Origin: Muribaculaceae bacterium
GTDB lineage: Bacteria > Bacteroidota > Bacteroidia > Bacteroidales > Muribaculaceae
Length of the DNA: 64,000 nt
Direction: 5' to 3'
Assembly (NCBI GenBank): GCA_017621225.1
Contig: JAGATN010000003.1
Coordinates: 1-64,000 of the forward strand
Below the pieces are notes generated by a model. It did not search any database and was not told the DNA's origin. It saw only the letters and a list, made by a program, of their open reading frames with translations. Position numbers and translations under genes: made by a program. Positions 59,177-60,690 of this stretch are shown one piece after another (within the stretch, counting starts at the first letter, position 1; each line of letters begins with the position of its first letter).

Positions 59177-59336
59177 TTTTTTAGATGATTTCACGAACAT
59201 CACAACCCAAAACCACTTCAATTTTTGATTAATCGTACTTTTACGTCAGCTACGGCAAATAAATCACAATCGAAGTTAACGTAGCTTAAATTTATAAGCA
59301 AAAGCGGGCCGCCGGACCGCATCATGCAATTCAAAA

Positions 59337-59352
59337 CCATAAATATTTATGG
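59337..59352. promoter_or_regulatory. Perfect 16-base palindrome
   Basis: CCATAAATATTTATGG reads the same on both strands. Such a site upstream of two promoters could bind a dimeric regulator. AT-rich palindromes of this length also arise by chance. Confidence 0.4.
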
Positions 59353-59422
59353 CATAATTTTAACTAATTTATAATTAAAATCATAAAAAGCGGAATGAAT
59401 GTTAACAAACTTTACCTTACAT

Positions 59423-59453
59423 TTTGCGAAACGAAAAATAATGCATACCTTTG
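59423..59453 (+). promoter_or_regulatory. Promoter upstream of the ncRNA candidate
   Basis: TTTG (59423-59426), 19 bases, TACCTTTG (59446-59453). It would start transcription near 59460, about 60 bases before the structured region. Confidence 0.68.
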
Positions 59454-59508
59454 CATCAAATACACCGGTTGCATAAATTCTTGGACTGATTCAAAATTTT
59501 ACGCATAA

Positions 59509-59516
59509 TATATTTG
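59509..59516 (+). promoter_or_regulatory. Second -7 element next to the ncRNA 5' end
   Basis: TATATTTG fits TAnnTTTG. Starting about 6 bases after it would place the 5' end at 59523, exactly at the closing stem of the structured RNA. A TTG at 59481-59483 is at slightly long spacing. Confidence 0.5.
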
Positions 59517-59522
59517 GACTAA

Positions 59523-59707
59523 GGACTAAGGCAACAGATATGACGTGATTGTCGTGAGACACCCATTGATTTTCATGGTGTAATGTAAGTATGATATAAT
59601 CTCTACACTAAAGTTTGCTGTAAGACAACAACTTTTTAGAATCACAAATGCCTTTTGGCTTTAGTCCTGTTGCTCCCTGTTTGAAGGGGGCAGCGGACAA
59701 TTTTTTT
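59523..59707 (+). ncRNA. Structured non-coding RNA, possible 6S-like RNA
   Basis: No protein frame is supported. The ends close as a 10-base-pair stem: GGACTAAGGC (59523-59532) with GCTTTAGTCC (59658-59667, one G-U pair). Inside are a loop of about 12 bases on each side, then GTGATT (59545-59550) with AATCAC (59640-59645), and at least two small hairpins. This open-bubble layout recalls 6S RNA, which binds RNA polymerase. A terminator-like hairpin, TTGCTCCC with GGGGGCAG and seven Ts, ends at 59707. Its first arm partly overlaps the closing stem, so a cis-acting attenuator for the BASS gene is the main alternative, though that gene has its own -7 element. A length of about 185 bases fits 6S-type RNAs. 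Confidence 0.5.
59664..59707 (+). terminator. Intrinsic terminator of the structured RNA
   Basis: TTGCTCCC (59670-59677) pairs with GGGGGCAG (59686-59693) and may extend with GTCC/GGAC (59664-59667 and 59695-59698); seven Ts follow at 59701-59707. Confidence 0.72.
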
Positions 59708-59733
59708 ATAACCCCGTTTTGAATATGTTTTTG

Positions 59734-59741
59734 TAATTTTG
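59734..59741 (+). promoter_or_regulatory. -7 element of the BASS transporter gene
   Basis: TAATTTTG, 35 bases before the ATG at 59776 and 27 bases after the terminator T-tract. No TTTG is seen at the right spacing. Confidence 0.5.
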
Positions 59742-59775
59742 CACTGCGAAAAAGAAACATCATTCGTTCTGATTT

Positions 59776-60690
59776 ATGACAAAATCAAATTTCCGTACAC
59801 AGATCAAGCCCTGGATATTGCCAATTGCCATGCTATTTGGGATGTTATTCCACAATTTCATGGACAAGGTGGAGTTTATGGCACCGTATCTTATTTTCAT
59901 AATGCTGTTCATAACGTTTTGTCGTATCAACCCCAACGAACTGCGAGTCTCCAACCTGTCGCTTTCACTGATATCCATACAGCTGTTCGGCGCGCTGGCC
60001 CTGTTTTTCGCCATATCGCCGTTGAGCGTCGACGTAGCCCAAGGCACTTTCATATGCATATTTTGTCCAACCGCCACCGCCGCCCCGGTCATAACGGGAA
60101 TGCTCGGAGGCAGCGTACCGCGACTGGCCACATTTTCACTCATAAGCAACATAATGGTGGCCATAACGGCACCGTTCCTATTCTCACTGATAGGGAGCAC
60201 CGACATGCCCATAGCCACGTCGATAGCCACCATAGCCATGAAGGTGATGCCGCTGATACTCGTCCCGCTGATAACCGCACTCGCGCTCCGACGCATTGCG
60301 CCAAAAGTCCATGCGGCCGTGGCCACGCGGCAATCGCTGTCGTTCTACATATGGGCCCTGTCGCTATTCATCGTGGTGGGCCGAGCCGTAAGCTTCGTGA
60401 TGAACGAGCCGTGGGAAAAGGTTCCCGAAATGATAGTGATAGCGCTATGCTCGCTTGTGGCCTGCTGCCTGCAGTTCTATTACGGACGACGCATAGGCCG
60501 TGCCTGCGGCGACAAGATAGCCGGCGCTCAGGGGCTCGGGCAAAAAAACACCGTACTTGCCATATGGATGGCGCTAACCTATCTCAACCCCATATCGTCG
60601 ATCGGGCCGGCCGCCTACGTGGCGTGGCAAAACACCATAAACTCCATACAGCTCTATTTGCATCAAAAAAAGGAGATAAAAACATATTAA
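59776..60690 (+). CDS. BASS-family (bile acid:sodium symporter-like) transporter
   Basis: 304-residue membrane protein with about ten helices. The segment TFICIFCPTATAAPVITGMLGG and the later IALCSLVACCLQF-like helices fit the bile acid:sodium symporter superfamily. In bacteria these carry organic anions such as pantothenate, pyruvate or bile acids, and the substrate cannot be told here. The ATG at 59776 is used. It lies 63 bases before a Crp/Fnr regulator gene on the same strand. Confidence 0.8.
   Translation: MTKSNFRTQIKPWILPIAMLFGMLFHNFMDKVEFMAPYLIFIMLFITFCRINPNELRVSNLSLSLISIQLFGALALFFAISPLSVDVAQGTFICIFCPTATAAPVITGMLGGSVPRLATFSLISNIMVAITAPFLFSLIGSTDMPIATSIATIAMKVMPLILVPLITALALRRIAPKVHAAVATRQSLSFYIWALSLFIVVGRAVSFVMNEPWEKVPEMIVIALCSLVACCLQFYYGRRIGRACGDKIAGAQGLGQKNTVLAIWMALTYLNPISSIGPAAYVAWQNTINSIQLYLHQKKEIKTY

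Follow-up and report, generated by a model that had tools for sequence, protein, structure and literature searches.

A candidate stand-alone gene for a structured noncoding RNA with a nearly invariant 18-nucleotide motif in Muribaculaceae

Which kind of RNA, if any, is encoded between two protein genes on a Muribaculaceae contig? The stretch that we analyzed (the window) comprises 64,000 nucleotides, positions 1 to 64,000 of contig JAGATN010000003.1 in assembly GCA_017621225.1, and a reading of its letters had placed a structured RNA of about 185 bases without a protein frame at 59523–59707. That sequence-only reading described a promoter element close before a 10-bp closing stem and a terminator at the end of the unit, and it proposed a 6S-type RNA, with an attenuator of the downstream gene as the alternative. 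The locus looks like a stand-alone noncoding RNA gene that is real, discrete and structured and has its own predicted promoter and terminator; to this extent, the proposal was borne out at the sequence level.

The absence of a protein frame held, the longest open reading frame inside 59459–59707 having 12 codons, but the length did not. According to the available text of PMC7366714, the consensus for the primary sigma factor of Bacteroides consists of TAnnTTTG at −7 and TTTG near −33. A TAnnTTTG box does lie just before the closing stem, at 59509–59516, as had been claimed, but it is not a conserved start: a box 4–12 nt upstream of the closing stem was found in 5 of 120 nonredundant homologues, whereas 88 of the 120 had one 60–89 nt upstream of the closing-stem start, compared with 2.6 in shuffled flanks. 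The conserved box of the window is TACCTTTG at 59446–59453, and a TTTG at 59423–59426 fits the −33 element. Given this box, the expected extent of the RNA is about 59459 to 59707 on the forward strand, where all features of the gene given below also lie, giving a length of about 250 nt; its 5′ end is placed by the promoter and its 3′ end by the terminator, and it is conserved in homologues, in 71 of which the mean predicted length was 253 nt. The earlier start thus appears to lie too far downstream, the gene beginning about 64 bases upstream of it. Across the whole window, we counted 55 TAnnTTTG boxes where 33 were expected, and 0 of 100 shuffles were as high.

The predicted folding of the region is more stable than that of shuffled sequences. 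For 59520–59710, the folding energy was −53.8, against −40.85 (SD 3.99) for the shuffles (z −3.25), and it was equaled in 2 of 200; for 59459–59710, the z-score was −2.24, with 5 of 200 shuffles reaching the same value. No Rfam 15 family (4,227 families) matched anywhere in the window at the gathering score. At E ≤ 10, the segment 59300–59900 gave two snoRNA families only (E 0.25 and 0.59), and 20 homologous loci searched at E ≤ 1 gave three matches, to one microRNA, one lncRNA and one snoRNA family. Falling into no family of the searched library, the RNA looks like the member of a new one.

Homologues were sought by BLAST, which found the RNA in 22 of 101 relatives, and with a covariance model (R1) built from 44 homologue sequences. 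The model matched 122 of 397 Muribaculaceae genomes in 14 of 30 genera, with one match in 121 of them and two in genome G127, although carriers may be missed in these counts as searches over more than 40 genomes scored seven candidates per genome under strict filters. In the window's own genome, the model matched once. Over 393 genomes of the order, all five matching genomes were within Muribaculaceae, and a deeper-scored search of 22 Muribaculaceae genomes without a match found nothing at E ≤ 0.1. The own genus is patchy, 7 of its 34 genomes carrying the RNA (six by pattern and, in addition, G030). A BLAST match outside the family (L021 in G064, E = 6e-5) was rejected: it lies between two frames, the alignment contains nothing further of the RNA, and R1 has no match in G064. 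The two copies in G127 are 2.4 kb apart and have equal scores (L152 351–503 and 2772–2924). In genome G032, BLAST gave an additional, partial match close to the end of a contig (L025 1501–1594, G032:C32), which consists of the 3′ tail without the core and is either a second copy or a misassembly.

Most model matches share a nearly invariant core motif, GUAAGUAUGAUAUAAUCU at 59585–59602, the 18-nt constant part of which reads GUAAGUAWGAUAURAUCU. Its conservation was counted in 101 of the 123 R1 matches: a 22-nt core was found within five mismatches in 86 and exactly in 38, and positions 5–7 and 9–13 were invariant among the 86, with the limitation that R1 was trained on sequences with the exact core and so favors core-like matches. 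In the genome collection, 56 stretches contained the exact 22-mer, each a single time; the loci L028–L083 were retrieved by such a match and are thus uninformative on core conservation. Genus g13 contributes 11 of the 15 matches that have no close core. All 10 matching genomes of this genus lack the core and retain the rest of the RNA, and inspection by eye revealed short inverted repeats at the core site, the 3′ tail being kept. Among the other deviating matches, L170 (with an inserted base), L183 and L192 retain most of the motif, and L175 (genus g4) is without it. In the predicted folds, the core was just slightly more unpaired than the remaining positions, at 0.52 compared with 0.40 (71 sequences), and in-place shuffling of the motif gave 0.49 (24 sequences), a point against the reading favored below.

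To assess the helices, we computed the duplex energy of the two arms belonging to one sequence and compared it with the energies obtained when arms were swapped between sequences. The test was computed for the 71 of 120 nonredundant homologues (145 including duplicates) that had the core, the 3′ block and an upstream promoter box at a distance of 55–90 nt; the other 49 were left out. Permutations within this set leave the relatedness of the sequences in; relatedness is lessened in a set of 12 diverse sequences with 5′ halves less than 55% identical (cut-off 0.55; cut-offs of 0.5 and 0.6 give 7 and 17 sequences). Four helices, here called P1, P1b, PX and the terminator, were matched by 0 of 300 permutations and, in a second run, by 0 of 2,000 (71 sequences each), and the figures for the diverse set were 0 of 2,000 for P1, P1b and the terminator each and 1 of 2,000 for PX. 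Control pairings behaved differently: positions +24 to +50 of the 5′ part with the pre-core sequence were equaled or exceeded in 217 of 300 permutations (71 sequences) and in 1,542 of 2,000 (12 diverse sequences), the 5′ end with positions −60 to −36 showed a mild signal (6 of 300; 71 sequences), and segment 1 with segment 3, both defined below, gave 17 of 300 (71 sequences) and 362 of 2,000 (12 diverse sequences). A stem flanking the core was unsupported: in the 71 sequences, 294 of 300 permutations equaled or surpassed it. The same holds for an obligatory pseudoknot between a loop UUUAC and the GUAAG of the core, TTTAC being present, within the stretch examined, in 71 of 104 sequences with the core and in 8 of 16 without it.

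P1 joins the 5′ arm UACACCG (59461–59467) to the coevolving arm UGGUGUA (59576–59582), which lies directly before the core. The own pairs averaged −11.67 kcal/mol, compared with −8.61 kcal/mol for permuted ones (0 of 300), and the arms of homologues pair as ACUCCUA/UAGGAGU, AUGUACC/GGUACAU, UGCCACU/AGUGGCA and ACAUUAUCGU/ACGAUAAUGU. A P1 of at least five pairs was present in the local folds of 40 of the 71 homologues; the energy-model fold of the window's own sequence contains no P1, which there rests on the homologues. In P1b, segment 1 (59468–59484; GUUGC 59468–59472, UUCUUGG 59478–59484) pairs with segment 2 (59519–59535; CUAAGGA, GCAAC), and four of the five inner pairs showed changes on both sides in an alignment of 34 sequences. 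This alignment (A3, 34 of 71 sequences) and a second one (A1, 44 of 57 unique sequences) were both hand-picked. The P2 hairpin, UGUC-GUGA-GACA at 59550–59561, has a GNGA loop, the letters of which are found in 43 of the 44 sequences of A1. Its site was chosen for maximal pairing, and the GNGA form was imposed there; read in this light, a mean of 3.65 of 4 pairs (71 sequences) compares with 2.9 when arms are re-dealt (0 of 2,000, also in the 12 diverse sequences) and with 1.76 after shuffling of the region and a renewed choice of the site.

Downstream of the core, the PX hairpin occupies 59608–59639, with arms taken from the fold and submitted to the coevolution test. The 3′ tail (59640–59667), recognized in the alignments, comprises AAUCAC, a GCC-UUUU-GGC hairpin and segment 3 (GCUUUAGUCC), the alternative partner of segment 2. 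Of 120 homologues, 79 have AATCAC in the 45 nt that end the match, and the GCC/GGC pairs were found in 42 of 44 aligned sequences. The gene ends at an intrinsic terminator (59664–59707), whose seven Ts had been noted before and which proved sound: its hairpin spans 59667–59696, its foot GUCC can pair with GGAC at 59695–59698, its arms coevolve, and the T run covers 59701–59707.

The stems on which the original proposal was built fared unevenly. The 10-bp closing stem (59523–59532 with 59658–59667) is indeed complementary, with one G–U pair, but it is not the sole fold, as a competing one is supported. As a complementarity it is kept, at least seven contiguous pairs being present in 48 of the 71 homologues, compared with 9.5 when the 5′ arm is shuffled. 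The letters of the 6-bp inner stem (59545–59550 with 59640–59645) match as described, and this stem does form in the energy model of the window's own sequence, but it is not conserved: the full complement was found in 2 of 71 homologues, against 0.5 after shuffling. Compensatory changes across homologues, which had been suggested as a check, affected 2 of 14 pairs of the closing stem on both sides in the 34-sequence alignment, a number reached in 270 of 500 shuffles; counted as cells changed on both sides, there were 6 (4 of 500 shuffles), and two slid versions of the stem have more. RNAalifold on 44 sequences predicted nine pairs, without a compensatory change and without the closing stem; its input started at the closing stem and thus did not contain the RNA's 5′ end. 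In the permutation test, the pairing of segment 2 with segment 3, which is the closing stem, was matched by 0 of 300 permutations in the 71 sequences, and by none in the second run, but was not significant in the 12 diverse ones (130 of 2,000).

Since both pairings are supported, segment 2 has two possible partners, and only some members of the family retain the predicted competing pairing, the closing stem. Across the 71 homologues, the median energy difference between the two folds is 1.3 kcal/mol; in 39 of them, segment 3 is paired with upstream sequence in the global fold. For the window's own sequence, the energy model favors the closing stem by 2.0 kcal/mol, and either fold includes the upper stem of the terminator. 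As the closing stem fails in the 12 diverse sequences, any switch may be confined to some members of the family.

The size of the RNA, its promoter and terminator and its stem-and-loop look had pointed to a 6S-type RNA, that is, one mimicking an open promoter and binding RNA polymerase; we now consider this very improbable. The covariance check that had been suggested, with the 6S and Bacteroidales-1 models of Rfam, gave no match at E ≤ 10 in 59300–59900, and the coevolving helices P1, P1b, P2 and PX do not make up one long hairpin with a central bubble. Moreover, the own genome has a separate Bacteroidales-1 RNA (RF01693) on another contig (G000:C45:24945–25132, L001 1501–1688; 121.8 bits), and such an RNA was present once in each of the 24 Muribaculaceae genomes tested (17 carriers and 7 noncarriers). 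The missing covariance match and the separate gene led us to reject membership. RF01693, which we take to be 6S-like and which is presumably the 6S RNA reported in Bacteroides, resembles the RNA described here in order, in approximate size and in having one copy per tested genome, and differs from it in being another gene alongside in all 24, in the lack of a covariance match and in its helices. The available text of PMC7366714 describes a 6S RNA of Bacteroides together with its product RNAs. The second early idea, a cis-acting leader (attenuator or riboswitch) of the transporter-like gene at 59776–60687, draws on the terminator with its competing pairings, on a gene that adjoins the RNA in the same direction in the window and in G030, and on that gene's weak match to SBF, the bile acid symporter family, which stays under the Pfam cut-off (E = 0.0035; 17.5 bits against 24.3). 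However, a TAnnTTTG box of its own precedes the gene at 59734–59741, RNA and gene have opposite orientations in G031, a frame on the opposite strand separates the two in G026, and other loci have different neighbors on either strand. The largest cluster of neighboring genes covered 9 of 57 loci; the first downstream frame, where it had at least 100 amino acids, was on the + strand in 24 and on the − strand in 17, and the corresponding upstream frame was on the + strand in 22 and on the − strand in 23. A conserved, co-directional downstream gene, as a riboswitch or attenuator would have, was not found at these loci. The varied neighbors and strands led us to reject a leader as the general role; the attenuator proposed for the window is weak on these grounds together with the gene's own box, and we hold a leader function to be quite improbable. 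The gene at 59776–60687, originally labeled BASS, has no NCBIfam match, and a Crp-like regulator comes next. Upstream of the transporter-like gene, three relatives that lack the RNA have a run of at least nine Cs and then ATTnGTTAA (L203 2532–2550, − strand; L204 1291–1312, + strand; L209 1329–1350, + strand), and a similar C run was seen by eye in L212; this tract is possibly phase-variable or regulatory.

An RNA that is neither bound to one neighbor nor a 6S RNA leaves a trans-acting RNA, and we regard the locus as probably a gene that stands alone and encodes a structured regulatory RNA of Muribaculaceae, about 250 nt long and acting in trans. The promoter and terminator of its own that are expected of a trans-acting sRNA are both recognizable in the sequence. 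Such an RNA would be laid out as the promoter box, a 5′ domain closed by P1 and holding P1b and P2, the 18-nt core, PX, the 3′ tail and the terminator. The core may be the active part that meets one partner in trans; segment 2 would have segment 1, within P1, and segment 3, in the tail, as alternative partners, and the RNA may alternate between these folds, which are close in energy, or change its fold during synthesis. An mRNA, bound by base pairing, is the likeliest single choice for the partner, though we hold it with somewhat less than even confidence, and a protein is the next choice and a more tentative one. Sites complementary to the core (G–U pairs allowed, up to three mismatches, both strands, the RNA gene itself counted in) numbered 169 in 14 carriers with the core, compared with 87 for the reversed pattern; the numbers were 55 and 50 in seven noncarriers and 36 and 21 in three genomes whose RNA lacks the core. 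Usual antisense seeds are shorter than 18 nt, and a nearly invariant motif of that length, together with the retained long-range helices and the GNGA letters of P2, would suit an RNA–protein particle or a protein-sequestering RNA with a protein bound at the core. The loss of the core in g13 argues against this reading, which we rate as unlikely. Equally doubtful is a new class of bistable RNA regulators that show the 18-nt motif to one partner while segment 2 switches, in which g13 would have lost the partner and hence the motif. The patchiness in the own genus and the changing neighbors could also be those of a mobile element or defense system, the RNA being, for example, retron-like or an antitoxin. 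Nothing similar was found in 50,697 phage and 72,556 plasmid records, an exact 19-nt core was absent from viral contigs, and no neighboring gene recurs beyond the cluster of nine, which makes this origin decidedly improbable. Finally, the letters ATGATATAA inside the core could be read as a minigene, AUG AUA UAA, that ties up a tRNA, which resembles the bar minigenes of phage lambda; 11 of the 86 cores have an A in place of the T of ATG, and we give this idea practically no credence.

For the trans-acting RNA that we favor, a conserved gene with a near-invariant motif would offer a concrete entry point to RNA regulation in Muribaculaceae, a family abundant in the mouse gut, and work can draw on a named carrier strain (Duncaniella muris DSM 103720, L058) as well as on natural relatives without the motif. 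In the open-license literature (titles and starts of abstracts, with subscription journals mostly outside), we found no study of RNA genes in Muribaculaceae and none of a structured noncoding RNA in the family, nothing related under Duncaniella sRNA, and no occurrence of the letters of the core. Among known systems, the stand-alone structured motifs of Weinberg et al. (2010) are similar in being candidate noncoding RNAs not tied to an mRNA (available text of PMC2864571) and, compared through Rfam families only, are set apart in that no Rfam 15 family matches the window. BatR of Bacteroides thetaiotaomicron is likewise a stand-alone, conserved sRNA with a −7 box and a terminator, and processing is proposed to lay its pairing segment open; by its description in the available text of PMC10861873, BatR is distinct from the RNA of Muribaculaceae in its length of 154 nt and in its occurrence in Bacteroides species.
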